Of a DNA stretch of 42,506 nt, positions 4,014 through 42,054 are shown in pieces; position 1 is the first letter of the stretch, and the number at the start of each line of letters is the position of its first letter. Position numbers and translations under genes: made by a program. The notes beneath the pieces are model-generated. The model had not been told where the DNA came from and did no database searches. It worked only from the letters and a program-made list of their open reading frames with translations. The stretch covers positions 1 to 42,506 of the forward strand of contig JABUEW010000027.1 of NCBI GenBank assembly GCA_013314855.1, read 5' to 3'. This stretch comes from Bacillota bacterium (GTDB taxonomy: Bacteria > Bacillota > Clostridia > Acetivibrionales > DUMC01).

Positions 4014-7000
4014 TCTCCCCATTAATATTCCACTCCTTGCTGTATGCTTCACAAGGGCCTTCACCTTCACTTACCTCATTTGCAAGTACTTCTTCCGAAA
4101 TAATATCCTTGTTCTTCTCAATTATGCCGGCAATCCGTTTATTTTCTTTATAGAACAACCTTATCCTGTCTTCCACTTCAAAGTCCGCCTCTTTTCTCAT
4201 TGTCTGAACTTTGCTTATTATTTCTCTCACAAAGCCTTCTTCAATAAGTTCAGGAGTAAGGTTTGTATCAATCACTACAGTAACTCCATAATCAGTTGTA
4301 GATACAAAACCTTCTTTTTGGGTTACTTCAACAAGTACATCAGCTTCAGCCAGTTCAATCTTTTCCCCCTCAACTTCCAATACAAAGGCTTCACCTTTTT
4401 TAAACGTCTCTACTGCTTCCAAACCGTCAGCTTCACTTAAAGCCTTACTTATTTTCGGCACAAGTTTCCCAAACTTTGGCCCCACCGTCTTAAGTTGAGG
4501 TTTAAGCTTATACTCGGTAAAATATTTCGTATCCTCTGTAAATACTACTTCCTTAACATTCAATTCCTCTTCAATGAGTCTTACAAAACTGGGAGGAAGT
4601 TTAAATTCGGCTTTTACATACATCTTTCCCACAGGCTGCCTTGTCTTTATGTTAGCAGTGTTTCTTCCTGCACGGCCTAGAACGACAATTTTCAAAACAG
4701 TATCCATGTTTTCCTCCAGTTCTCTATCAATACATGCCTCATTATATACGGGAAAATCACACAAATGGACACTCTCCGGAGCAGACAGGTCAATGGTTCT
4801 TGTAAGGTTTTGATATATTTCCTCAGCCATAAAGGGAACAAAAGGCGCAGACAGTTTTGTTACAGCATCAAGTACTATATAGAGAGTCATGTAAGCATTA
4901 ATTTTGTCCTGTTCCATACCCTTTTGCCAGAAACGTTCCCTGCTTCTTCTCACATACCAATTGCTCAAATCATCGACAAAATCCTGTATAGCCCTTGCAG
5001 ATTCAGTAATACGGTAGTTTTCAAGGTTTTTGTCTACATATCTTATCAACGAGTGGAGCTTTGACAGGATCCATTTGTCCATAACCGAAAGCTTTTCATA
5101 CTCCAGCTTATAATTAATAGGATTAAACTTGTCAATATTGGCATACAGAATATAGAAGGCATAGGTATTCCATAATGTACCCATAAATTTACGCTGTGCT
5201 TCACTTACAGCCTCTTCATAAAAACGGCTTGGCAACCATGGGGCGCTTCCTGTATAAAAATACCAACGAACTGCGTCTGCTCCCTGTTTATCAAGAACAG
5301 TCCACGGATCCACTACATTCCCCTTGTGTTTGCTCATTTTCTGGCCGTCCTTATCCTGCACCAATCCCAAAACAATGCAATTTTTGTATGCAGGCTGGTC
5401 AAAAAGCAGTGTAGATATTGCGTGGAGTGTATAGAACCATCCCCGGGTCTGGTCAAGGGCTTCACTTATAAAGTCTGCCGGGAAGTTATCATTAAAAAGC
5501 TCATGGTTTTCAAAAGGATAGTGCCACTGGGCAAACGGCATTGCTCCCGAATCAAACCAGCAGTCTATAACTTCAGGTACTCTTTTCATCTTCCCCGTAC
5601 TACATTTTGGGCACTTTAATAAAACACTATCTATATAAGGCTTATGGAGCTCTATATCATCAAGGACATTTTCACCCATCTCTTTTAGCTCAGCAATACT
5701 TCCTACCATATGCCGGTGGCCGCACTCACACTCCCATATGGGCAACGGCGTACCCCAATACCTTTCACGGCTCAAAGCCCAGTCTATATTATTCTCTAAG
5801 AAATTTCCAAACCTTCCGTCTCTTATGCTTTCCGGCAACCAATTAATCTTTTTGTTGTTTTCAAGCATATTCCCTTTGACAGCAGTAGTCTTTATATGCC
5901 AAGTGTTTCGAGCATAATACAAAAGAGGTGTATCACATCTCCAGCAGAAGGGATATGAGTGTTCATAATCCATTGTTTTGTACAGGAGGTTTCTCCTGTC
6001 AAGGTCCTTAATTATTTGAGGGTCGGCATCTTTCACAAAAATGCCCTTCCATGGGATTACATCATCAATGAATTTACCCTGTTCATTTACCAGTTGGATA
6101 AAAGGCAAGTTGTATTTACGCCCAACTCTTGCATCATCTTCGCCAAATGCCGGAGCAGTATGGACTATACCTGTACCCTCAGTTAAAGTTACATAATCGT
6201 CCGCAACTACGAAAAATGCTTTTTTATCAACTTTAGCAAAATTAAACAGTGGTTCATACTCTATACCAACCAATTCATTGCCGATTTTCTTCTCCAGTAT
6301 CTCATATTCTTCTGTTAAAACTGTCTCTAATAGAGTTTCAGCAAGAATATACACCTCTTCTCCACATTTAACCTTGACATAGGTTTCTTTTGGATTTACA
6401 GTAAGACCCACATTAGACGGCAGAGTCCATGGGGTTGTGGTCCATGCCAGAAGGTAAACCCCAGGTTCTCCCTTAACCTTAAATTTAACATATATCGATG
6501 GCTCCTTAACATCCTTGTAGCCCTGGGCAACTTCATGGCTTGACAATGATGTACCACATCTGGAGCAATAAGGAACAACCTTATGCCCTTTATAAATAAG
6601 GCCTTTATCCCAAATCTGCTTCAATGCCCACCATACCGACTCAATATAACTGTTGTGGTAGGTTACATATGGATTATCCATATCAGCCCAAAAACCTACC
6701 CTGTCGCTTATTTTTCTCCATTCTTTTTCGTATTTCCATACACTTTCCTTGCATTTTTGAATAAAAGGCTCTATCCCGAACTTTTCAATCTCAGGTTTCC
6801 CATTTATACCAAGTTCTTTTTCAACTTCAAGTTCAACAGGCAATCCATGGGTATCCCAACCCGCCTTTCTTAATACTTTGTAACCTTTCATTGTTTTATA
6901 TCTCGGTATAATATCTTTTATTACCCTCGTAAGTATATGTCCTATATGTGGTTTACCATTAGCTGTAGGCGGCCCGTCATAAAAAGTAAATGTGGGGCCA

Positions 7001-27800: not shown

Positions 27801-27920
27801 TTAACACAACTTCATTATCTATATGATAAAACTTTATTATTTTTAACGCAACTTTTTTATCTTTAACACGACTTTATTATTTCTAACATAACTTTTTTAT
27901 CTCTGACACAACTTTTTTAT
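27801..27920 (-). repeat. six tandem 20-bp repeats (Tn7-type right-end sites, R0)
   Basis: Units begin at 27,801, 27,821, 27,841, 27,861, 27,881 and 27,901. Typical units are TTTTAACGCAACTTTTTTAT and CTTTAACACGACTTTATTAT. Read on the minus strand the core is ATAA[AT]AAAGT-YGTGTTA, which resembles the Tn7 TnsB-binding core ACAATAAAGTC. Close tandem packing is typical of a Tn7 right end. A possible terminus (TGTTTTATTC on the minus strand) ends at 27,958. No matching left end was found to its left. Confidence 0.65.
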
Positions 27921-27970
27921 TTTTCCCCTTATCCCTTTGCCCTTTTTAGAATAAAACATAGTCCTAACTA

Positions 27971-28403
27971 TGTATATACATAAAAAACTCATGTCAAAAC
28001 CCAACACTCCTCAACCCCTTGTCCCATCTATCCTTAACCCTATTCTTCTAATTACTTCCAGATAAAAAAGTCATGTCAAAAATCACCCATTTTCCTTGTC
28101 TCTTTCTCCTAATATTTTCCTATTTTAAGCCTCATTTTAGATAAAAAAGTCGTGTCAAGAATAGGGAAAAGTTAAAAGGAAAAAGGGGAAAGTTTAATCA
28201 ATATCTTTCATCAATACACCTTTCAAATCCTTCAAAATCAATACTTTTACCCTTATCCCTTACTCCTTAACCCTAATAATCCTAACAAAAAATCATGGCT
28301 CCAATAAGGTTTTCTACCCTATTTTCACCATGACTTTTAACACAACTTTTTTATTTTTAACACGACTTTTTTATTTGTGACACGAGTTTTTTTGGGTTAT
28401 ACA
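27971..28403 (+). mobile_element. miniature Tn7-like element 1 (no genes)
   Basis: The left terminus TGTATATACATAAAAAACTC (27,971) and the right terminus, on the minus strand TGTATAACCCAAAAAAACTC (from 28,403), match at 20 of 25 positions over the full inverted repeat. Left-end sites GATAAAAAAGTC[AG]TGTCAA are widely spaced (about 27,981, 28,062, 28,140). Right-end sites are three 20-bp tandem units (28,335-28,394). This copies the asymmetric end design of Tn7. The 433-bp element encodes nothing visible and would need TnsABC in trans. Confidence 0.65.
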
Positions 28404-28408
28404 CATGG

Positions 28409-28922
28409 TGTATATTTAAAATAATCTCCACTCCACCCACACCCCTCAAACCCTTGATTTTCCTATATCCTAATTTCTACCAGATAATAAAGTCCGCTCT
28501 AAAATTCCTTAATTTCATCCCATTTATTAACATTTTTACCTTAATTCTTGTAACAATTTTTAAAATAAAGTTGGTTCTAAAAAGGGATGTTTTGAAAGGA
28601 AAATAGGGTCAAGTTTCATGGATAAAGGTTAAGTCTTTATTTTACTTCTTCAGTTTTTTGTATCAATATTATCTTCAATACAGAAGTCAATACTTCTCTC
28701 AATCCCTTTAAAATCAATAGTTTTAAGGCTGTAACCAATAAAGAATTCTAATGAAAAATCTAATCCACTCAACCCTTACACCTTAGCCCTTTCCCCTGTA
28801 AAAAAAGCAAACCCCGCAGCAAAACAGGAATTATCCTGCATTTACTACGGGATTTGGGAACGAACTTTATTATCATAGAGTCAACTTTATTATCATGGAG
28901 TGGAGTTTAATTGTATTATACA
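28409..28922 (+). mobile_element. miniature Tn7-like element 2 (no genes)
   Basis: The left terminus TGTATATTTAAAATAATCTC (28,409) and the right terminus, on the minus strand TGTATAATACAATTAAACTC (from 28,922), match at 21 of 26 positions. Internal left sites are GATAATAAAGTCCGCTCTAA (28,483) and AAAATAAAGTTGGTTCTAAA (28,561). Right sites are three 20-bp units (28,861-28,920) with core GATAATAAAGTT. The interior resembles element 1 but is diverged. It starts exactly 5 bp (CATGG) after element 1 ends. Confidence 0.65.
28800..28857 (-). terminator. terminator-like hairpin inside right end of element 2
   Basis: CAAACCCCG (28,808) pairs with CGGGATTTG near 28,848-28,856, with an inner stem CAGGA-ATTA-TCCTG. 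On the minus strand it is followed by TTTTTTTAC. It would stop transcription entering from outside the right end. A hairpin in the equivalent place lies inside the right end upstream of tnsA. Confidence 0.6.
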
Positions 28923-29050
28923 TAGTTAGGTTCAAGAAGACTTGGGATAAGGAAAAAGTATTTTTATACCTGTTGCGCAATATAAAAAATTTACAACATA
29001 GAGGTCATTATTTGAAAGTTTCCTACGGAAATAAAGCCTTCTTCAACTCT

Positions 29051-30075
29051 CTATAATAGATGCAGAGTTTCCTCTTTATTTTGAGTAATACTACTAAATA
29101 TATCCTTAATCTTCTCGAATAGTAACCTAAATTTTTCAAACTCTTTAGGTTCTAAATTATTTACCTCCTGTGCAAATTCTTTTTTTTATTATTGATTTTA
29201 AATACAGATGTTCCTAATATATTGCTCCCATACATTGAATGTCTTTTTAATATATCATCAGAAAAATAGTGTTCAATAACAAAATATCTTTGTGTTATAT
29301 CATCGTCTGTAACAAAAAGTTTTCTTTCGTCAGGTACTGGTAATAACATACCCCAAATATTGTTATGTATGTGTTTTCTTAAAGAGTTTTTTATATCTTA
29401 TTTTCAAATATTTTTTTTACTTAAGGATTTAAATTGTTCATTTCCTTCTCTATCATTATCAAACAATCCAATTATAGGTCTGGTTGCTATAGTTGATAAA
29501 TGCTCAAGTTTTCTTCTTACACTGTCAGCATTTCCTTTCCTTTCATCTTCTTCAAATTCTATTCCAGAGGATTGACATTCAAAAAACATTTGTGTTTTAG
29601 GATAAAGTTTTTGCCAAGCAGTTTCAATTAATATTACATCTGTTTTTCCTTCTGTAATAACTAAAGGTCTTGTTAATTGTGATATATAATTTTTAAGTTC
29701 TTGAATTTCAAGAGGTTCCGTACCTTTACCTACCCCTACAGATATACTCAAAGCATTTTCTATTTTTTTTAAAACAGCATCATTAACTGTTCCTATCTTT
29801 TGTCTTAACATTTTTTTATCTAAAGTGAAAATCTGTTCAAGTAAAACTACTGAATCTTTAGATAACCCAAATTCTCCCGAAAATATGGCAACATGAGTAG
29901 GTAATTTTGCCTTATTCAACTGTGATGTAATTGCTGCCACTACTACTGTTGGTGAGTATTGGTTTCCAATATCATTTTGAATAACGATAACTGGTCTTAT
30001 ACCTTTTAGTACTGCTCCTACTCCACTCCCTAAATCCGCATAAAATATATCCCCTCTTTTAACCATAACACTCAT
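29051..30075 (-). pseudogene. MazF-like endoribonuclease fused to a TOPRIM domain, frame-broken
   Basis: Residues 1-115 are a MazF/PemK fold: KRGDIFYADLG, IRPVIVIQND, VVVAAITSQ, VVLLEQIFTLDKK. From about 136 a TOPRIM domain follows, with catalytic-type Glu in PLVITEGKTDV and the DxD pair in LFDNDREGNEQF. The frame then hits TGA at 29,404 just after an 8-A run, resumes as IHNNIWGMLLPVPDERKLFV to about 29,180, breaks again at a second 8-A run, and ends with EVNNLEPKEFEKFRLLFEKI before a stop at 29,051. MazF cuts mRNA; the TOPRIM part suggests nucleic-acid chemistry. No MazE-like antitoxin is adjacent. A truncated MazF-plus-partial-TOPRIM product of 223 residues could still be made. Confidence 0.75.
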
Positions 30076-30200
30076 ATCATTCGATTCCCCTTTAATTCAA
30101 ACTTTACCTAAATATCTATATTCTTATCTTAATCATACAATTAACGTACACAATTATAAAAAATATTTAATGCGACGAAATATTATATAAGTGCAAAAAT

Positions 30201-32147
30201 TTATATATTCTGCTTATACTCAATAAATAAATTTCCTGATTTACTTTTTATTATTACCGAGGAGTTTTTTTCTTTTTCATCTAACACCATATTTTGAGTT
30301 TCTATATAAGCATCATCACAGTGAATATGCGGACGACCTAATGTCAATTCAGTGCCAAAGAGTTCTATAGTTTCTTCATCCTCACCCACTATATCAAATT
30401 CAAACACATCACTTTTTTCTTTATTATGTAAAGCAATTATCTTTTCATCTGAAATTGGTAATTCCTTAATATATAATTTACCATCGTTTTTAACAATACT
30501 GCTTAATCTATTAATTTTATCAATATCATCATATAATATATTATCTGGCACTTTAAAATTCACATGATAATATCTTTGTATTTTTACAAGATTAGAATAA
30601 ACATACTCTTGTAGTTTAAACGATTCAACAAATTCTTTCAAATTATCTTTTTCAACCGATATATCAGGCAAATCAAAATGAATACTGTAATCGTCTGCTT
30701 TATATAATGACACTTTTTCCCCATTAAACCATTTCAAAAGCAACTTTGAAATTTTACTTCCTTCAAATATATCTGAAGGTTTTAACCATTGAATATTAAG
30801 TTTTTTGTCATCAATTTTACTATGATGCTCGTCAACACTTATTAGCGAAAACTTGAATACTATTTTAAAACTTTTATGATTTATTTCAGTTTGTATTAAA
30901 TACTTAGAAACATATCTTTTAAATATGACATTTTCAGGTTCATCTATGTCTTGAAAATATAGATGTCCTGCATATTCCTCCTCTGGATAAGGAGATAGAT
31001 AGAAACTGGTAAACTTCTGTAAATTTTGTGAAACTGGATTTATGTTATAGCCATTAATTTTACTATCAACTCCCTTAATAAACTCGCCAGGTATAGTAAT
31101 AGGTTCAAAACTCTTACCATTTAAAAAATCATATAATTTTTTCATTGTATTAATATACTCTTCGTCTTTTTTATTATTTTCGAAACTAATACTAACATTC
31201 ATGTCAACGTTATCAGCATTACCTTTTAATAAACCTATAGAAGATAAATATGGGTTCTGTCCAATAATTTGAAAATCCAATTTAATACCTTCGTTTTCAA
31301 AAACCTTTTTTACTTTCTGAAAGTCTACTAATCGTTTACTACAATCCTCTATTAATTTATCTTTAATATCCTTTTCTAATTTGGGAATAATTTCTTCTGC
31401 AGTCATTGGAATATACGATATATTTTTTGTAGATAAATTAATTTGTTTATACTCTGGTAATTGTGGGCTTGCTAAAAAACATTCATTACTAAATTGTCCC
31501 AACTTCTCAATTATCTTATCAAAAATAAATTGGATATTAGGGTCTTCTAAAGAATATCCAACAAAGAAAATTGATTTTTTGGCAATAATAGATTTTATCT
31601 CTGTCCATAATGGCCTGTATATATCGCCATCAAAAAATTTCAGATAATCAGATTTTGTTATTATAATTAAATCTGGATTAGTAAAATCAGAATGTATTTT
31701 AAATAATTTAACTTTGTCAGAATTAATCGATGAAAATGCTGTAGCAATAGATTCATCTCTAATAATTACCTCTATATCGTTTCCATATGCTTTTTCGAAT
31801 AAATCATCAAAATTTGTCGTAATTATTGTTTGTATTTGCGGTATGTTTTTTAATGAATTATGTACATATAAATCTGAAATATTAATATTTACTTGTAAAG
31901 CACTTTTAATTATTGAAAATAACTCTGTTTTTTTATTATTACGCATTTTCACAAATTCTTCTGCTACTTCTGGTAAAGTGTTATAATAACTCAACAGTTC
32001 CTTTTCACTTGGCGTTGCATATGATTTAATTTTCTGTACTAATTCTCCTCCCGTCGGCACTCCTGCATATTTAGAGAATCCTGCTCCTACCCAAAGAACT
32101 ACTTCATTATTTCTAATTTTATTTAATAGTTTCTCATAGTTATGCAT
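30201..32147 (-). CDS. SIR2-domain protein, candidate defence NADase
   Basis: A 648-residue protein. The SIR2-like fold covers about 1-270: WVGAGFSKYAGVP (NAD loop, 20-31), TTNFDDLFEK (Asn 112, Asp 114), the catalytic-type His in LFKIHSDF (152) and FFVGYSLEDPN (GYS, 197-199). Residues 270-648 form a large beta-rich region with no recognised family, probably a sensor or effector. Stand-alone SIR2 proteins with long C-terminal domains are known antiphage NAD-depleting systems. It lies between the tns operon and the MazF-TOPRIM gene, all on the same strand, so it is likely transposon cargo. The RBS AAGGTGAT precedes the ATG. Confidence 0.85.
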   Translation of the reverse strand: MHNYEKLLNKIRNNEVVLWVGAGFSKYAGVPTGGELVQKIKSYATPSEKELLSYYNTLPEVAEEFVKMRNNKKTELFSIIKSALQVNINISDLYVHNSLKNIPQIQTIITTNFDDLFEKAYGNDIEVIIRDESIATAFSSINSDKVKLFKIHSDFTNPDLIIITKSDYLKFFDGDIYRPLWTEIKSIIAKKSIFFVGYSLEDPNIQFIFDKIIEKLGQFSNECFLASPQLPEYKQINLSTKNISYIPMTAEEIIPKLEKDIKDKLIEDCSKRLVDFQKVKKVFENEGIKLDFQIIGQNPYLSSIGLLKGNADNVDMNVSISFENNKKDEEYINTMKKLYDFLNGKSFEPITIPGEFIKGVDSKINGYNINPVSQNLQKFTSFYLSPYPEEEYAGHLYFQDIDEPENVIFKRYVSKYLIQTEINHKSFKIVFKFSLISVDEHHSKIDDKKLNIQWLKPSDIFEGSKISKLLLKWFNGEKVSLYKADDYSIHFDLPDISVEKDNLKEFVESFKLQEYVYSNLVKIQRYYHVNFKVPDNILYDDIDKINRLSSIVKNDGKLYIKELPISDEKIIALHNKEKSDVFEFDIVGEDEETIELFGTELTLGRPHIHCDDAYIETQNMVLDEKEKNSSVIIKSKSGNLFIEYKQNI

Positions 32148-32346: not shown

Positions 32347-34221
32347 TTACTCTTCATCCCTTTTACTAAATTCAAATTTATATTCCTCCCTTATTCCAGC
32401 CTTCCTCATTATCTTCCACAACTGAAGTTCTTGTCCTTCTTTTTCTAATTCTCTAACTGCCCAGCGCATCCTCCTCAAACGAAAGTCACGATTAGTCTCT
32501 TTAACAGAGTCCAGATATGCCTTTGTCTTTGGCATTTTATCTAAATGCTTTTCAAGCAAGCCCCTTACACCTAATTTACCGCCAATTAGACTAACAGTAA
32601 TTCTTTCAGGCTTTCCATCTGAATTTAGTATCTTATCAACAATCTCTTTTACCTGAGACAATATCACATTATCCCTTTGGTTCCAGTCAACTCTGCTATT
32701 AATAGTATTAGTCGTCTTTTTATCAGGCGAGTTCCGGTTCAACCACTCCCTGTCATTTCTATAAAGCCAAGAAAATAAAGCCTTATCCATTTCCCGTAAT
32801 TGCGTCTTCCCCATCTCTGGGTGCTGCATTCTTAATTCCTTCCACTTCTGTCTGTAATAACTCCTTTCCAAATTCATTGAAGAAGTATTATTACGATTGC
32901 TATCACATTCTTTATCGGACTCACTCCGCTTTTCCCAGTAGGTAGTTAACCCAAGTTTCTTGGTATACTTCTTGACCGTATTAGCGTCTACACCTAATAA
33001 CCTCGCTGTTTCTCTTAAACTCAACTTTTGGTTTACTAATTCTTTAAGTCTCTCCTCCCACACTTGCCCAAATTTTTTTATCCTTCCAAACCTATATCTT
33101 GCATCCTCAGACTCATCTGGTCCACTCCTTGTATAAACAAATCCGCAAGTGCAAGAAAAAGTCCCAACAGGACATTTCAAATCCGTACTGTATGAGACTT
33201 TTAAGTCAGAAACAACTGGTTTTAGGTAGTGGTCTGACGCTGCATTCAGGCAAGGCCATGGTCCATCTCCGAAAGGCTGATATTCCATCTTTTTATAAAA
33301 TAAATCAGGAAGAGAAATACCAAGAAAACGGGACAAAAGCAAATGTCTGATAGGATGAGCAGTCTTGTTTTTCTTCCTTATCATATCCATTAGCCAATTT
33401 GAATTGTTATCGACATCAACCCTGGACTGAACAATTTCTAAAAATTTTTCGCCATAATAATCAATAAACTCTTTTATAAACTCCTTTTGATGCACTTTTC
33501 CGTTTGAAGTTGCAAATCCCATTTCCATCATCTTTGCAAGATACTGCTCTTTATACCATTCTATATCTCTCTTTTCAAAGTCGCTGTTAAGCAAAACCTG
33601 AGCATCCTCTGCGAGCCTAATCAGTTTTTCAAAAACATCATCAGAGTAGTTGATAACAATATCGGGTTCTACACAGTTCTCCTCGCCAGCAGCCCGATAT
33701 TCGTGTTTATTATATCCCCTGATAGGCACCTGGCTGTCATATAAAGGAACATGATGTTTTGGACATATCAGTACTCCAGGAATTTGATGAACCCTATGCC
33801 AGTATAACTCTCCATACCGCAATTTATCTTCTTTAACACAGACAGGGCAGAACTTAAAATATTGGTTTAATGTAATGGAACTGGCCATAATTCCAATTCG
33901 GCTGTATATGCCACCTCCCTTTTCCCCTATCATTGATTTAAAAATCTGTTCTGCACGTTTTGGAGGCAAAAAGGCAGAGTAGAAGGGAAAAAGTGTATGG
34001 CTTTTTATGAGATATTCTTCTGTATATCGGGAATTAAGGGGCATATTATTAACAAGGTTCTGTATATTGGAAGGCAGGTCCATCACTGCTGTTACGGAAG
34101 TTGAACCGAAAAGGTCTTTCATTGTCGCCTTATAACTTGTATTTCCACTTCGCACATGGTACCTTGCAAGGACGCTATATAATACTTCATCCTCATAAGG
34201 CACAGGAAAAAACGTCATCAT
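32347..34221 (-). CDS. tnsD: TnsD/TniQ-family target-site selector
   Basis: A 624-residue TniQ-domain protein. The start FFPVPYEDEVLYSVLARYHV is the TniQ hallmark. Zinc-binding residues are Cys125-x-x-Cys128 (FCPVC) and Cys153-x-x-His156 (CPKH). A second cysteine cluster is CPVGTFSCTCG near 360. A helix-turn-helix, LSLRETARLLGVDANTVKKY, follows near 400. TnsD binds a specific attachment sequence and recruits TnsC and the transposase. Last gene of tnsABCD, 6 bp after tnsC. Two ATG codons are adjacent; either could be the start. Confidence 0.9.
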   Translation of the reverse strand: MMTFFPVPYEDEVLYSVLARYHVRSGNTSYKATMKDLFGSTSVTAVMDLPSNIQNLVNNMPLNSRYTEEYLIKSHTLFPFYSAFLPPKRAEQIFKSMIGEKGGGIYSRIGIMASSITLNQYFKFCPVCVKEDKLRYGELYWHRVHQIPGVLICPKHHVPLYDSQVPIRGYNKHEYRAAGEENCVEPDIVINYSDDVFEKLIRLAEDAQVLLNSDFEKRDIEWYKEQYLAKMMEMGFATSNGKVHQKEFIKEFIDYYGEKFLEIVQSRVDVDNNSNWLMDMIRKKNKTAHPIRHLLLSRFLGISLPDLFYKKMEYQPFGDGPWPCLNAASDHYLKPVVSDLKVSYSTDLKCPVGTFSCTCGFVYTRSGPDESEDARYRFGRIKKFGQVWEERLKELVNQKLSLRETARLLGVDANTVKKYTKKLGLTTYWEKRSESDKECDSNRNNTSSMNLERSYYRQKWKELRMQHPEMGKTQLREMDKALFSWLYRNDREWLNRNSPDKKTTNTINSRVDWNQRDNVILSQVKEIVDKILNSDGKPERITVSLIGGKLGVRGLLEKHLDKMPKTKAYLDSVKETNRDFRLRRMRWAVRELEKEGQELQLWKIMRKAGIREEYKFEFSKRDEE

Positions 34222-34227
34222 TTTGTG

Positions 34228-35883
34228 CTACACCGCCTTGAAAAAATCATTTTCCACTTGCCTGATAAGTCCTTTTTCTTTTAATGATTCATAGGCTGAT
34301 TTTTTATTTCTCCTGCCTTCTTCCACAATAAACCTTATATCATTTTCATCCATCTTCTTTGCTTTACTCTTTTCCTTTCGCTTTGGTTTATCATTGGTTG
34401 ATATCATCTGCACAGCCTTTATTACAATCTCTGAGACTTCAAGTCCTTCTTCACCATCAAGAACCTGCTCTACTGCTTTTTGAGCCTTTTTTGCATCAAT
34501 ATTTAAGTCCAATAATTTTAAAATCGCCTGTTCCTTCCTGTAAAGGTTCACTTCCTTTTCTTTTTCCTTCTGCTGCCTTTGGAGCATCTTCATCCTCATA
34601 TCCCATTCTAATGATTGTTTGCTTTTGTCTACAAATCCCAGAAAATCAATGTCTACAGTACAAATATCCTCATACTTGGCGATTTCTTTAATGTTTCCCG
34701 ATTTTAAGGCTTCCAGCATAGGGCGGACCAATTTCAAATTATCCTTTGCAACCTGCTTAATCAGATTTACAGTAATATCCTCCCTGCCTGAGAGGATTGC
34801 CCGTATTTGGGACATAGCATAAAGTTTTACCGCAATGTCAATGATGCCCTGTGACTCTTCATAAATTACATCGTTTAATTCAGGTGTTAAAGGTACTTCC
34901 TTTTTGGTCCACTGATAGTCCCAAAGTGCATTGATTAGCAGTTCCCAACTTTTATCTTTGCTCAGCCTTTCCCAAATCATATCCCCCTGACCGCTGCCTC
35001 GCCTTGCCTGACGGAATTCCGATTGTAGAACCGATAATGCTTTTGTAGTTCCGATAAGTATGACTGGTACTCCAATGGTATTGACAAGGGTTACAAAAAA
35101 GTTAAGCATCTTTTCATCCCCACCGCTTTTTGACCCATTCAAATGCTGAATCTCGTCTATGACCAATACGCCTAAGGCTGTATTTCTGGCTATCTGGGAT
35201 ATTATAGAGAGCATATTGTCTACGGTTTTCCTCCCTACCCCGAACTTCTTATAATAATCCGTACCCAACAGGTCGTCTACCTTATGGAAAAACTCTATAC
35301 AGAGCCCCTTCAAAGAGCCGTCAAAAGGACAGTCTAATTTCAGCCAAACCAGTTGGTACATGCTAAAATTGATATTCTTATATTGTGAATGAACAATTAT
35401 CTGAGGAAAAAGGGATAATACACGGTTGATAGCCGTTGTCTTGCCCATTCCGCTTACCCCTATCATCGTAAAGCCTGCTGCAGTAGTCCTGAAGGACTCA
35501 TTGCTGCTTAATTCCCATTTCAGGCTTTGTATCGCCTTATATCCATCCTGAAGACTTTCAGCATAGGAAGGTTTAAATGGGTTACGTGCCAGGTATCCCT
35601 GCCTTATAACCCTGCTTATCCTGCTTTCAAGGTCAAGATGAATACCAAGCGGCTGGAAACACTGGAACAACCGCTGAACCATATGGATGCGGTAGTGGCT
35701 TTCCAATTGCCTTTCTTCTGGGTTATAGCGCGGATAAAGTGCAAGTTTCTCCACTACTTCTTCCTGGGAATAAATTGGTGGCAGTGCTTCAATAAACGGG
35801 TTTCCGCAGTATTCAGGTATCAACTGTTCCTTGTATTCTGCAACTACAGCATTAGCGCCATTAGGTATTATCACTTTATTCAT
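34228..35883 (-). CDS. tnsC: TnsC, AAA+ transposition regulator
   Basis: A 551-residue AAA+ ATPase. Walker A is GVSGMGKTTA (142-151) and Walker B is GVLVIDEIQHLN (about 240-251). Sensor regions follow, including GVPVILIGTTKALS. The C-terminal 130 residues are highly charged and coiled-coil-like. TnsC links target selection by TnsD to the TnsAB transposase. Its start overlaps the end of tnsB by 8 bp. Confidence 0.93.
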   Translation of the reverse strand: MNKVIIPNGANAVVAEYKEQLIPEYCGNPFIEALPPIYSQEEVVEKLALYPRYNPEERQLESHYRIHMVQRLFQCFQPLGIHLDLESRISRVIRQGYLARNPFKPSYAESLQDGYKAIQSLKWELSSNESFRTTAAGFTMIGVSGMGKTTAINRVLSLFPQIIVHSQYKNINFSMYQLVWLKLDCPFDGSLKGLCIEFFHKVDDLLGTDYYKKFGVGRKTVDNMLSIISQIARNTALGVLVIDEIQHLNGSKSGGDEKMLNFFVTLVNTIGVPVILIGTTKALSVLQSEFRQARRGSGQGDMIWERLSKDKSWELLINALWDYQWTKKEVPLTPELNDVIYEESQGIIDIAVKLYAMSQIRAILSGREDITVNLIKQVAKDNLKLVRPMLEALKSGNIKEIAKYEDICTVDIDFLGFVDKSKQSLEWDMRMKMLQRQQKEKEKEVNLYRKEQAILKLLDLNIDAKKAQKAVEQVLDGEEGLEVSEIVIKAVQMISTNDKPKRKEKSKAKKMDENDIRFIVEEGRRNKKSAYESLKEKGLIRQVENDFFKAV

Positions 35884-38041
35884 GGATTTTCTTTAAGGCC
35901 TCCTTCTGTTTCCTTATCAAAAGGTCTATTGTGTTATTCTCGTTCAACTGTTCCTTCTGCTTTGTCCTATTAAACGATATAATTTCTGCGTTATTTCCTA
36001 TATCTTTTCTATCCAGTTCAAAGGCTTCCTTTTCTCTATTTATCATTTTCTCTAGCCTTCTATTATTTCTAATGCCTTTTTTACGCTTCGAATCGCTTTC
36101 ATCTGACTTTTCTTCTTTGAAGGATTTCTCTGCTTCTTTTGCTATATTTTCAATCTCAGCAATTAAATCAACCTTAGCCTGAAGTTCCTTATCTTCTGCC
36201 ATCTTTAGATGAAGTTTCTCCTCCTCAAGAAGGTATTGAATTTCCTCAAAATTTTTATCCTTATACCTGTTTTGGTGTTCCAGGAGAAAACATTTCTCAA
36301 AGTCCATACCATTTTGGTCCTTAATATAAATAAAGTTCATATTGCGGGGGTCATAGGATACATCAATTTTCCATGTCCCTTTATTCCTCGCCTTTTCAAA
36401 CCACCTCTCCTTGAGAGTTTTTTGGGAAGCATAATACAAGCCCTTAAATTTTATTCCCTTTGCTGTTACTGTTGCCGTATCCGAAGGCATGAGATTTAGT
36501 TTAACAATATCCTCTGGTACACTCCGCAATCTGCCTGCACGGTTTGCAATTCCCCAGTTCCATATTTCCCGTGGGATGCATTCTACTTCATCAGCAACCA
36601 TCAACTCTTCCCTGTCATAATTTTTAAGGTAATACTGGTTATTTTGGTACAGGGCACATTTGATAATAATCTGTGTAAACTGGTAAATATCCAGTTTGGC
36701 ATCCAGTCTGTAATCCCTGTCGCCTCGTTCCCGAATATCAGGGTTTACAGTACCAGGCAAAAGTGGTTTTACCCTTAAATTGGTTATTCTGAAATGCTGT
36801 TCAATAACCGCTTTCCAATCTGCCCTATACGGAGGAGTATTCTGTACTTTTATATGTAAGGAATTTATGATGTTTTCAACATTCTTACCTTCAAGTTTCC
36901 CTCTGTCCGCCAAAATAGCCTCTGGAAGATGGTGGACTGGCCAGTCCTTTTCTTCAATATCTATTCCATACTCCCTGCAAAAGGCAACTTTATCGGCTGC
37001 AGCATTAGCCAGAGCCATCATGGCTCCTATCCAACTGGGACCCTCTAAACCAACATAAATACCAACAACCATTCGGCTAAAAACATCTATAACCCCATAA
37101 ATCACTGGTCTTCCAATTATCCAGTTCCTGTTAAAGCGGCTTACAAGATAAATGTCTCCTACAGTTGCATCGATTTGATAGATGCTTCCTGGTGCAATGG
37201 CTTCTGAAGTTGAATTTCCCAGAAGAGGCCTGTATTGCTGTTCATATTTTTTGTTGCTCTGTCTGGATGTGATTTGTTTTTTATAGTTCACATTTTTATA
37301 ATACCAATAACGAAATTGTGCATATGTAGGTACATCACCCACAGGTTTTATAACAGGAACTTTTATGCCGTTTTCTATTTTGAATTCATCGCTGAAAAAT
37401 TCTTTCCTCATCAGTTCATATGCAAGTTTAAGAGTATTTTTAGTACCTGTGTGATAGTATTTATTGATAGCGATATTAAATATCTTTTTAATTTCTTCAT
37501 CTACATTGATTCCATCACCCATCAGTTCCACATTTTTCCGTCTTCGGCCACGCTTTTTATCTCCTGCCCGTCTTTCTTTACCTGGACCTCCGCATAAATA
37601 GTAGTCTGGAAGTAAAGCGTTCTTTATTTTCCCTCTCTTCCAGAATCTTTTAAGATAATTTAAAACAGTTTTTTCATGTAGGTTATAAATAGACGAGACT
37701 TTTAAAACTAGTTCTCTCCGTTCTTTCTTATCAAAAATAGCAGGTTCAAGTCTAACAAGTTCTTTAATAAATTCCCATGCTTTATCCCGTATTTGTCTTG
37801 ATTTCTCTGACAATTCTTCTTCATGAACAACCTTAACAAATGGGTCGTTTTCCAATATAAATGCAATTTCCTGCTTTATGCCCTCTTCGATATCAGAAAT
37901 ACTTCTTGGGAAAGGACTTTCATTTAAATATATGTTTATAACGTATGCAAGGTTTTGCTGCCTATTAAGCCACAAAATCCTTTCCACACTTTCTTTACCA
38001 TTATCCTGTACCCACTTAATTAGTGTATTTACTGCAATCAA
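35876..38041 (-). CDS. tnsB: TnsB, DDE transposase
   Basis: A 721-residue protein. N-terminal helix-turn-helix modules (about 90-140, VSSIYNLHEKTVLNYLKRFW) bind the end repeats. The rve/DDE core has the first Asp in YQIDATVGDIYLV (about 277), the second in ILADRGKLEGKN (about 365) and the Glu in VIEQHFRITN (about 400). A mu-type beta-barrel and a charged C-terminal tail (TnsC contact in relatives) follow. It cuts and joins the 3' ends. It starts at TTG overlapping the tnsA stop (TTGA), behind GAGGGTGGGGG. Confidence 0.93.
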   Translation of the reverse strand: MIAVNTLIKWVQDNGKESVERILWLNRQQNLAYVINIYLNESPFPRSISDIEEGIKQEIAFILENDPFVKVVHEEELSEKSRQIRDKAWEFIKELVRLEPAIFDKKERRELVLKVSSIYNLHEKTVLNYLKRFWKRGKIKNALLPDYYLCGGPGKERRAGDKKRGRRRKNVELMGDGINVDEEIKKIFNIAINKYYHTGTKNTLKLAYELMRKEFFSDEFKIENGIKVPVIKPVGDVPTYAQFRYWYYKNVNYKKQITSRQSNKKYEQQYRPLLGNSTSEAIAPGSIYQIDATVGDIYLVSRFNRNWIIGRPVIYGVIDVFSRMVVGIYVGLEGPSWIGAMMALANAAADKVAFCREYGIDIEEKDWPVHHLPEAILADRGKLEGKNVENIINSLHIKVQNTPPYRADWKAVIEQHFRITNLRVKPLLPGTVNPDIRERGDRDYRLDAKLDIYQFTQIIIKCALYQNNQYYLKNYDREELMVADEVECIPREIWNWGIANRAGRLRSVPEDIVKLNLMPSDTATVTAKGIKFKGLYYASQKTLKERWFEKARNKGTWKIDVSYDPRNMNFIYIKDQNGMDFEKCFLLEHQNRYKDKNFEEIQYLLEEEKLHLKMAEDKELQAKVDLIAEIENIAKEAEKSFKEEKSDESDSKRKKGIRNNRRLEKMINREKEAFELDRKDIGNNAEIISFNRTKQKEQLNENNTIDLLIRKQKEALKKIHE

Positions 38042-38883
38042 AGTACCCCCACCCTCTCTGGCAAACTTTGTTGTGCAATTTCTATACTTTGGGTCGAATC
38101 ATTAATGTCTATTTTCTTATTCATGTCCACCATTATTCTTTTAAGGGCAATTAAACGCTTGAATATATACACCCCTGACCCTGTATCCAAGTTAAATAAC
38201 CTGTCAAATTGGATAGCGAAATTTCTAATCGAAGTATTGCTTCCTGCCAATTTTTCAACAAAAGCATTGCAGTAATAGTCTGCTTCTTCATCTGTAAATC
38301 CTCTTTCATCAGTAGGATATAAGGATGAGTGAATCCATTCGATATTCTTTGCTTTAACTACTGGAATCTCTTTTTGTGTTACTATTCCCCAATCAATGTT
38401 TTGGCTCTGCCAGTATCTTCTTTCAATTTCCAGCCTTTCTAGGGCTGTCTTTCGTTCAAGTTCATAATCCGCTTTAAGACTTCTTGCAAGATACGTTATT
38501 TTGCCGTTTGGTTTTTTCAATGTTATTAAAAATGATGTAGATAGAATATAAGGGGTTCCTGTATCTTTATCTTTAAATAAGTCAAAATTTAAACCAGCCT
38601 TATTTTCTATCACTTCTTCACAGTTGAATAAAGGAAAATGTTCCCTGATATCCAATACATCATCTTGCCATTCAAGCAAATAAAAATATCTTGTCTCTGT
38701 ATCCGTGAAAAAGTGATGCGTTCTTTTTGTTTTCCATCCAAATATACGTGTAACCCTTCCTTTAGAAGGGAAGTCCTGGACAGTAAGCCAGGGCTTGTAG
38801 TCTTTTCCTTTTCCCTGCCCCCTGCCCTCCTGTATCCATTTATTTAATTTATTTTTATCCCAACTTATATTTCTTTTAGCCAT
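38038..38883 (-). CDS. tnsA: TnsA, transposon-end endonuclease (possibly impaired)
   Basis: A 281-residue TnsA: N-terminal endonuclease domain to about 165, then a winged-helix domain (IVTQKEIP...). The start is the ATG giving MAKRNISWDK, 8 bp after GGAGGTG; an upstream extension to 39,000 lacks support. By alignment to the E63/D114/K132 triad of Tn7 TnsA, the glutamate is present (LLEWQDD, Glu 71) and the lysine is present (ARSLKADYEL, Lys 137), but the aspartate position reads LSTSFLIT, Ser 117, where DFL is usual. TnsA cleaves the 5' strands; loss would shift Tn7-type elements toward replicative transposition. First gene of the operon. Confidence 0.88.
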   Translation of the reverse strand: MAKRNISWDKNKLNKWIQEGRGQGKGKDYKPWLTVQDFPSKGRVTRIFGWKTKRTHHFFTDTETRYFYLLEWQDDVLDIREHFPLFNCEEVIENKAGLNFDLFKDKDTGTPYILSTSFLITLKKPNGKITYLARSLKADYELERKTALERLEIERRYWQSQNIDWGIVTQKEIPVVKAKNIEWIHSSLYPTDERGFTDEEADYYCNAFVEKLAGSNTSIRNFAIQFDRLFNLDTGSGVYIFKRLIALKRIMVDMNKKIDINDSTQSIEIAQQSLPERVGVL

Positions 38884-38985
38884 GCAAACACCTCCGTAAT
38901 AGGGATTAGAGACTAGGTTTATGGGGGCAAGAATTAGTATAATGGTAATAGTCCTTATCCCTGAACACCTAAATTTCAAAACAAA

Positions 38986-39040
38986 AAATGCCACTGACAA
39001 CAGTTGAACACCTCTAAGGGTGTCTGTGTCAATGGCATTT
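38986..39040 (-). terminator. hairpin inside the right end upstream of tnsA
   Basis: AAATGCCACTGACA (38,986-38,999) pairs with TGTGTCAATGGCATTT (39,025-39,040), and the inner arms AACACC and GGGTGT extend it. On the minus strand a T-run (ATTTTTTG) follows, so it reads as a terminator for transcription coming from outside toward tnsA. Position and layout match the hairpin in element 2. Confidence 0.6.
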
Positions 39041-41672: not shown

Positions 41673-41862
41673 TTAATGAAGAATGCAACCTTTCATTTTG
41701 TAATTCTTAATATAATCCCAGTATACTTTTATTTCGTCCTGCTCTAACATTTCATAGATGCTTTCAATTTCATCGTAAAATTCTTTGTATACTTTTAGAA
41801 TGTGGGGCTTCTGCGTATTCCGGTTTATCCGGACAGTGAATCCGGAGGCATCCGGACACTAA
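41673..41862 (-). pseudogene. unidentified 3' coding remnant
   Basis: An open frame with no start codon, ending in TAA, followed by a terminator. It reads CPDASGFTVRINRNTQKPHI, then LKVYKEFYDEIESIYEML and KVYWDYIKNYKMKGCILH. The helix-rich end looks like real protein, but I cannot name the family. A TAG closes the frame upstream within the TCCGGA repeat cluster. Confidence 0.35.
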
Positions 41863-41884
41863 ACCGGAAACATCCGGACACCTT
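41818..41884. repeat. cluster of TCCGGA-centred repeats
   Basis: Within 67 bp the motifs TTATCCGGACAGT, GAATCCGGAGG, GCATCCGGACACT, AAACCGGAAAC and ACATCCGGACACC follow one another every 11-16 bp. The flanks are AT-rich. Multiple short terminal repeats of this kind occur at ends of IS21-like elements, but no istA or istB is visible, so the identity is open. Confidence 0.5.
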
Positions 41885-42054
41885 GTCGAGTGTTTTAATT
41901 TTACATTTTTAAATCATATTTTTCAATAGGTTTTTACAATTTTCATACGAATGCATGTAAATAATAAAGTTCAATTTTGTATAAAAGAGCTCATAAAATT
42001 AAAACCTCTATATCATTTTGTTTTTTAGAATAGCATATAAAGTAGTAGTCATAG

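Follow-up and report, generated by a model that had tools for sequence, protein, structure and literature searches.

What are two gene-less units with Tn7-like ends doing head to tail, exactly 5 bp apart, in the same contig as a set of tns genes? The question is raised by a block at 27971-28922 of a 42,506-bp stretch of DNA from a Bacillota bacterium. This stretch, called the window here, is the whole of contig C27 in a 252-contig assembly. An earlier note, made from the sequence alone, had described the block as two non-autonomous mini-Tn7 elements inserted repeatedly at one attachment site. On recheck the coordinates of the units, their lengths of 433 and 514 bp and the CATGG spacer all hold. 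Units of this kind are called minis below; handles beginning with G, C and L stand for genomes, contigs and loci, and X and Y are the large elements that are read as lying to the left and right of the block. Its features are the following.

27802-27920, minus strand: array of six TnsB-like sites at about 20-bp spacing, read as the inner right-hand array of X
27963-27970, plus strand: CCTAACTA, inner junction of X with its right-terminal mini
27971-28403, plus strand: unit 1, a 433-bp mini of type E1, read as the right terminus of X
27980-28157, plus strand: three spaced left-end-type TnsB-like sites of unit 1, at 27980, 28062 and 28141 (matrix scan)
28290-28337, plus strand: possible hairpin of unit 1, AATCATGG...CCATGACTT, seen by eye
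28338-28394, minus strand: three tandem right-end-type TnsB-like sites of unit 1, at 28338, 28358 and 28378 (matrix scan)
28404-28408: CATGG, the 5 bp between the units, read as the attTn7 target duplication between X and Y
28409-28922, plus strand: unit 2, a 514-bp mini of type E2, read as the left terminus of Y
28484-28578, plus strand: two spaced left-end-type TnsB-like sites of unit 2, at 28484 and 28562 (matrix scan)
28810-28856, plus strand: hairpin of unit 2, CCCGCAG...CTACGGG, from a single-sequence fold
28857-28893, minus strand: two tandem right-end-type TnsB-like sites of unit 2, at 28857 and 28877 (matrix scan), followed by a degenerate terminal site seen by eye
28923-28930, plus strand: TAGTTAGG, inner junction of Y with its left-terminal mini

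The inverted repeats reported at the unit ends are real. The arms of unit 1 (27971-27999 and 28375-28403) match at 79% over 29 nt and those of unit 2 (28409-28435 and 28896-28922) at 81% over 27 nt. In addition, a perfect 14-bp inverted repeat, CCTAACTATGTATA and TATACATAGTTAGG, spans the outer borders of the block (27963-27976 and 28917-28930). Neither this repeat nor the array at 27802-27920 had been noticed in the earlier note. The clusters of TnsB-type sites that had been claimed for both units were recovered by the matrix scan as predicted sites, which are spread out on the left and arranged in tandem on the right, as in Tn7. Site scores range from 11.4 to 23.1 within the block and the best score elsewhere in the window is 11.8, but the matrix was built from 13 sites of the block, so that the block scores are partly circular. 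Outside the block, 23 matches score above 8, a number within the 11-27 obtained from each of 10 mononucleotide shuffles. The hairpin motif of unit 2 was recovered in 32 of 51 mini copies by copy-by-copy folding; the E1 copies have a different possible hairpin.

Both units are found in other genomes, and this recurrence is independent proof that the block is real. Matches to unit 2 occur in 20 of 58 genomes of the order and, at E<=1e-15, in 34 of 391 genomes of the class, the genome of the window being included in both counts. End-to-end copies with exact ends (query 1-514) are present at 13 places in 6 genomes of the order set, the window among them. Unit 1 is matched in 14 of 60 relatives (own genome included), and 5 of the matching places, in 3 genomes and again with the window, cover the full unit. 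A profile made from 14 full copies detects unit 1 as a distant member (E 5.9e-28, whole length). The pattern of the left end of unit 2 was met in 38 stretches of named genomes, which include Lutispora, Herbinix, Fonticella, Thermoclostridium, Acetivibrio and Thermoanaerobacterium. Two minis from different genera, at L029 3101 (G035) and L034 10469 (G039), have an identical 20-bp left flank, GACAGACAAAACGTTCAAAA, that falls in neither of the flank classes described below; it is perhaps a shared insertion site. The block as a whole is matched in 24 of 60 genomes, 13 of which have no TnsB match, so many minis are orphans. The earlier note had held that repeats lying away from any tns genes, as regulatory sequence, would speak against it. 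Minis are indeed present in the absence of tns genes, but the precision of their ends, the duplications and the position at glmS favour transposon ends and their remnants over regulatory sequence. Regulatory repeats or chance can be dismissed, as both units recur with exact ends and the relatives show duplications and empty sites.

The sequences that flank the minis give an indication of what the block is. The 51 distinct full-length minis fall into three groups: in 22 the left flank ends in AACTA, in 7 the right flank starts with TAGT, and 22 show neither; none has both. In the AACTA class the flank mostly lies within CC(C)TAACTA and is often preceded by an array of right-end-type sites, and the right flank is varied; arrays resembling the one at 27802-27920 precede many minis of this class. 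In the TAGT class the flank is mostly TAGTTAG and it is the left flank that is varied. The simplest reading of these flanks is that the minis would form the right and left termini of large elements. Unit 1 belongs to the AACTA class and unit 2 to the TAGT class, and unit 1 would thus end element X on the left and unit 2 start the tns element Y on the right. The outer flanks in the window are conserved inner sequences of larger elements, CCTAACTA immediately before the block and TAGTTAGG immediately after it, and the two 5-bp flanks of each unit agree at 1 of 5 positions. The conserved inner sequences account for a caveat of the earlier note, that AACTA and TAGTT are not direct repeats. A single 1-kb element ending at 27971 and 28922 is disfavoured, since AACTA and TAGTT are inner junctions in other copies. 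Inner junctions of the forms CTAACTA/TAGTTAG or CTATCTA/TAGATAG were also seen to form an inverted repeat around minis, even in families with no match to unit 2.

There is good support for reading the block as the place where two large Tn7-like elements meet, X on the left and Y with tnsABCD on the right, serially inserted at attTn7. For the window, serial insertion rests on CATGG and the flank classes across two contigs. CATGG recurs on contig C70 of this genome, where it follows a mini of the AACTA class that ends at 6146 and precedes the 3' terminus of glmS; there it is 21-25 bp beyond the stop codon and adjacent to a right terminus. C27 and C70 are separate contigs that are not physically joined. 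The C70 mini is only 77% identical to unit 2, so that it is probably not the right terminus of Y but part of another element. Among the stretches fetched for their minis there are 22 distinct glmS loci, and in 19 of these a right end begins 25-27 positions beyond the stop codon. The three exceptions are L076 (none), L066 (1118) and L041 (166); one further row, the partial second glmS of L097, is left out of the count. At that locus (G209:C39) the 25 bp after the second glmS 3' fragment, which is 46% identical, are those that also follow the intact gene, and it looks as if the attachment site had been duplicated.

Other loci bear on the junction as well. Of the distinct left ends, 64 in all, 11 have a right end no more than 12 bp away, with gaps of 2, 3, 4, 5 (six times), 8 and 10; thus 6 of the 11 lie at exactly 5 bp, a peak that is explained by serial insertion at one point. 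Genome G035 aligns over both units in one stretch (query 231-1197, 66%). Had the whole 1-kb block been found as one unit with different boundaries, the earlier note would have been contradicted. The G035 stretch, however, keeps the internal boundaries, with two minis 5 bp apart (ACACG) followed by TAGTTA, and is a similar junction and not a different unit. The left mini of this stretch has no flank of the AACTA class, which suggests that a solo mini can take the place of X at such a junction. The Tn7 type, the repeated insertion at one attachment site and the 5-bp target duplication between the units, as proposed in the earlier note, are right. The proposal that the minis are free-standing non-autonomous elements stands in part: family members occur alone, but the units of the window are most likely termini, their outer flanks being conserved inner junctions.

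What do X and Y contain? For X, no second full E1-type mini that could mark its left end was found in the window or in the rest of the assembly, and neither the left terminus of X nor the right terminus of Y was found. The genome has only one TnsB match. For Y, the genes to the right of the block are as follows.

29404-30075, minus strand: PemK/MazF-like gene, presumed cargo of Y
30201-32147, minus strand: SIR2_2-domain gene, weakly similar to the defence protein Dsr1, presumed cargo of Y
32347-34221, minus strand: tnsD (TniQ and TnsD domains), the target selector of Y
34228-35883, minus strand: tnsC (AAA / TniB)
35876-38041, minus strand: tnsB transposase, E = 1.2e-119 to the solved Tn7 TnsB
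38038-39000, minus strand: tnsA, with Ser at the position aligned to the catalytic Asp114

The PemK/MazF-like and SIR2_2 genes occupy the stretch between unit 2 and tnsD (29404-32147). TnsB keeps its acidic residues, judged by eye in the alignment, and TnsA matches the solved Tn7 TnsA at E 8.4e-44. Two repeats were noticed by eye to the right of tnsA, namely short ATCCGG(ACA) repeats in an intergenic stretch (41820-41885) and a long inverted repeat near the contig end (42057-42232, cctgtgga...gggtaacctg and caggttaccca...tccacagg).

Complete elements in relatives show how such an element ends. In four relatives (G045, G035, G046 and G219) elements of 57.7, 70.8, 52.8 and about 55.8 kb have terminal minis that are direct repeats, 99-100% identical, around tnsABCD, with 5-bp duplications outside. 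These elements, and a small composite in G045, are listed here.

G045, 1324844-1382494: element of 57,651 bp, duplication TTATC, 451-bp minis 100% identical
G045, 1382535-1383875: composite of 1,341 bp, duplication AATAC, 528-bp minis 100% identical
G035, 154494-225305: element of 70,812 bp, duplication ACTTC, 435-bp minis 100% identical
G046: element beside glmS, duplication ATCAC, 405-bp minis 100% identical, inner junctions CCCCTAACTA and TAGTTAAAAGG
G219: element with duplication AAAAT, 657-bp mini alignment 99.7% identical, inner junctions CTATCTA and TAGATAG

The duplications in G045 and G035 were assessed in a flank test of 108 end pairs (3 of them twice), where 8 matched at 5/5 positions against about 0.1-0.2 expected. 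The CATGG pair, which spans two contigs, is one of these matches, and two others, ACAAC (2,449 bp, G243) and ACTAC (L060), are discounted because their left flanks overlap a neighbouring end. Excising the 57,651-, 1,341- and 70,812-bp inserts together with one duplication restores empty sites with gap-free matches to paralogous minis (100/100, 116/116 and 405/429). Of the four elements only that of G046 is at glmS; those of G045 and G035 lie inside other minis, and no glmS was found in 120 kb around the G219 element. The minis of different elements in G045 are 66-73% identical between three types, and two 504-bp copies are 96% alike.

Variations on this arrangement have also been observed. An outer pair in G045 carries GGAGT over 64,103 bp, with an incomplete right mini. 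The element at G039:160k has AAAGT on both sides, terminal minis that are only 87% alike and a third copy inside. At G035:285k there are minis at both ends with no clean duplication, and it is into the left one that the 70.8-kb element is inserted. In G230 a 254-bp, 89% repeat flanks the tns genes and the 5-bp flanks do not match. Two minis, at G039:C1 148494-148954 and at L186 10211-10658 (G137), are bordered on either side by sequence resembling an inner junction, an arrangement that tandem integrations or a circle junction would produce.

The interiors of the large elements were compared by clustering. The tnsABCD genes are common to all six, that is, to the interiors of G045, G035, G046, G219 and G039 and the partial one in the window. 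A ParM-like actin is present in four and a tyrosine recombinase in three of the five complete interiors. A gene of the 23S-IVP type, resembling that of the 23S rRNA intervening-sequence protein, was observed in all five (G045, G035, G046, G219 and G039). Pfam was run for the 23S-IVP-type and ParM-like genes in G045 and G219 and for the tyrosine recombinase in G045 and G046. The two actins searched match structures of the ParM/StbA family and of ALP12, and one ParM match of the G045 actin is itself described as genome-borne. The G219 interior also encodes a DUF3991-Toprim protein and a RecD2-like helicase. These genes and the actin are typical of autonomous circles, though they are no proof of one. 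In the G045 and G046 elements tnsA lies 34-49 kb from the right end.

Why would a Tn7-like element end in two copies of a complete mini? A possible answer is found in TnsA. The nuclease residues of Tn7 TnsA are Glu63, Asp114 and Lys132. In the alignment the TnsA of the window has Ser in place of Asp114 and keeps Glu63 and Lys132. The TnsA set was drawn from 27 loci; two gave no TnsA and two were too short (G199:C9, 75 aa; G211, 33 aa), which left 23 informative proteins. The position of Asp114 is Ser or Thr in 16 of these, counting the Ser of the window, and Asp in 7. Position 63 is Gln in seven of the 16 as well, and position 132 is Arg in the G219 protein. Nuclease activity thus appears, from the alignment, to be lost in the TnsAs that lack Asp114. 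Within the order set, unit 2 has matches in 7 of 8 genomes with an Asp-less TnsA, the exception being G046, and no match in five Asp-retaining genomes (G005, G022, G037, G049 and G053). Since the elements are related, the correlation with residue 114 is not a count of independent events.

Terminal repeats were predicted from the loss of Asp114 and then checked in further relatives. The prediction was borne out fully in two genomes (G046 and G219) and partially in two (G039 and G035) and it failed in two (G004 and G137), where no terminal mini pair was found in 229 kb and 100 kb, respectively. Only G046 and G219 are clean predictions, because other minis had been found in G039 and G035 before. 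G110, also with an Asp-less TnsA, is represented by two contigs, one of which ends beside the tns genes and the other of which has no pair in 40 kb. In the Asp-retaining G005 the element is of the classical form: it measures about 11.6 kb, its ends are single, and TACAT flanks it at either end. G362 and G230, which also retain Asp, were searched as 80-kb stretches with the ends of both elements unmapped; no pair flanking tns was found in G362 (repeats of at least 100 bp, 85%), and in G230 only the 89% repeat that has no duplication. In these three Asp-retaining elements no identical terminal repeats were seen. TnsA mutants and cointegrates were reportedly treated by May and Craig in 1996. According to PMC8188705, a CRISPR-associated transposon (CAST) with TnsA D90A gives more than 95% cointegrates, in which duplicated mini-transposons flank the donor backbone. 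Loss of the tnsA gene is discussed in PMC8649781, whose section 11 does not mention a substituted active site in a retained tnsA.

It is suggested that, without cutting of the 5' strand by TnsA, TnsB would join the 3' ends only, and transposition would be replicative. A circle with the tns genes, cargo and one mini could then be pasted whole into a target as a cointegrate. Both ends would then consist of the same mini, in rough analogy to proviral LTRs, and recombination between the two copies may free the circle, with a solo mini remaining behind. The adjacency of X and Y would be possible because target immunity need not act between elements that have different site types and probably different TnsBs. 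X has site type E1 and Y has E2, and in G035 type E1 accompanies a TnsB 64% identical to that of the window; a differing TnsB could let Y ignore the immunity of X. Taken as a whole, with the serial junction of X and Y at attTn7, the mini-flanked elements and the cointegrate integration of a one-mini circle, this account is considered probable. Identical minis could also be kept so by gene conversion. A free circle with one mini was not found in a plasmid collection or in viral contigs. Of the plasmid records, 1,295 were matched with TnsB, all below 60% identity, and none with unit 2; the pattern scan of viral contigs gave 2 contigs, and the profile detected no mini in their fetched stretches.

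An alternative is that the elements are composites of the TIME-COMP kind, in which two minis came to flank tns genes and cargo and the outer ends move the whole; identity of the minis would then reflect recent assembly or gene conversion. The architecture matches that of TIME-COMPs, among which PMC4133298 describes one whose two end copies are identical, and the 1,341-bp composite in G045 fits as well. The inner junctions, CTAnCTA before a mini and TAGnTAG after one, recur however in G045, G046 and G219, although unit 2 has no match in G046 and none at E<=1e-15 in G219. The arrangement therefore looks old, and yet the paired minis are identical. A TnsA without the catalytic Asp also argues against cut-and-paste, and assembly as composites is judged rather unlikely.

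Solo minis bring in a second alternative, that the block represents two independent MITE-like mini-Tn7 elements inserted in succession and that the large neighbour is no part of the element of unit 2. A 540-bp solo mini in G243 (L085 4606-5145) has a perfect GCTGG duplication and interrupts an open frame. By eye this frame resembles an IS transposase gene, and the joined flanks give a 552-nt open frame. The solo mini in L060, flanked by ACTAC, is less clean, as one of the five matching bases belongs to a neighbouring end. The many genomes with minis, over half of them lacking a TnsB match as noted above, fit independent movement too, and so does the G035 mini with neither conserved flank, which precedes a left terminus by 5 bp. 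The outer flanks of the two units in the window are nevertheless the conserved inner junctions of large elements, and CATGG pairs with the glmS-adjacent site and not with the outer flank of either unit. Independent insertion is thus very doubtful as an explanation of the block.

It has also been considered that circles integrate into a resident solo mini by homologous recombination and not by transposition. This would likewise yield mini, interior and mini inside an old target duplication, and the minis in G039 and G137 with inner junctions on both sides are expected from tandem integrations of this type. By itself it leaves unexplained the insertions at new sites with TTATC, AATAC and ACTTC and gap-free empty sites, as well as the identity of both terminal minis, and it is held to be quite improbable. 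The preferred account remains replicative integration of a one-mini circle.

The elements resemble known systems in several respects. Like Tn7 and the Tn7-like transposons of attTn7, they have homologues of TnsA, B, C and D, insert some 25 bp downstream of glmS, towards which the right end points, make a 5-bp duplication and have asymmetric clusters of predicted TnsB sites and ends of the TGT...ACA type. They differ from Tn7 in that the termini in the relatives are a complete left-right mini repeated at both ends and in that TnsA lacks Asp114. The single non-repeated ends of Tn7 are absent in G045, G035, G046 and G219; Y in the window is incomplete. According to the portion of PMC4133298 consulted, the TIMEs and TIME-COMPs of the Tn3 family share gene-less minis, solo or paired around DNA, and 5-bp duplications, but they depend on Tn3 machinery and their cores have no transposition genes, whereas the interiors here carry tnsABCD and are Tn7-like. 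Cointegrates made with TnsA absent or dead (type V-K CAST and VchTnsA D90A, in the excerpt of PMC8188705) also have the donor backbone between duplicated mini-transposons; there the mutant is engineered or tnsA is absent, and here natural elements retain a tnsA with a substituted active-site residue. The comparison with LTR retroelements and proviruses is an analogy only. Identical direct terminal repeats, solo-repeat remnants and a short target duplication are shared, but no reverse transcription is involved and the transposase is of the Tn7 type. In the literature surveyed, consisting of parts of papers including PMC8649781, PMC10293859, PMC10969869, PMC4133298, PMC8188705 and PMC11406308, with subscription papers mostly outside, neither terminal direct mini repeats in Tn7-like elements nor a natural TnsA lacking Asp114 is described.

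There is about an even chance that a plasmid-like lineage in Clostridia and their kin has made Tn7 into an integrase. In such a lineage the mini would be the cassette, the Asp-less TnsA would be kept, perhaps for a structural role, and the whole circle would enter attTn7 or other targets replicatively and acquire LTR-like ends. A cycle of release and reintegration with solo minis as scars would, if true, be a lifestyle that is not described for relatives of Tn7 in the same partial survey. If the account is true, a natural Tn7-like lineage keeps TnsA with its cutting apparently lost, and identical ends like those of cointegrates are its genomic signature. This makes a role of TnsA beyond cutting testable and shows that several large cargo elements can be stacked at one attTn7. 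It also means that the calling of boundaries in Tn7 islands can take terminal minis for whole elements, and the natural integration of entire circles beside glmS could interest genome engineers.
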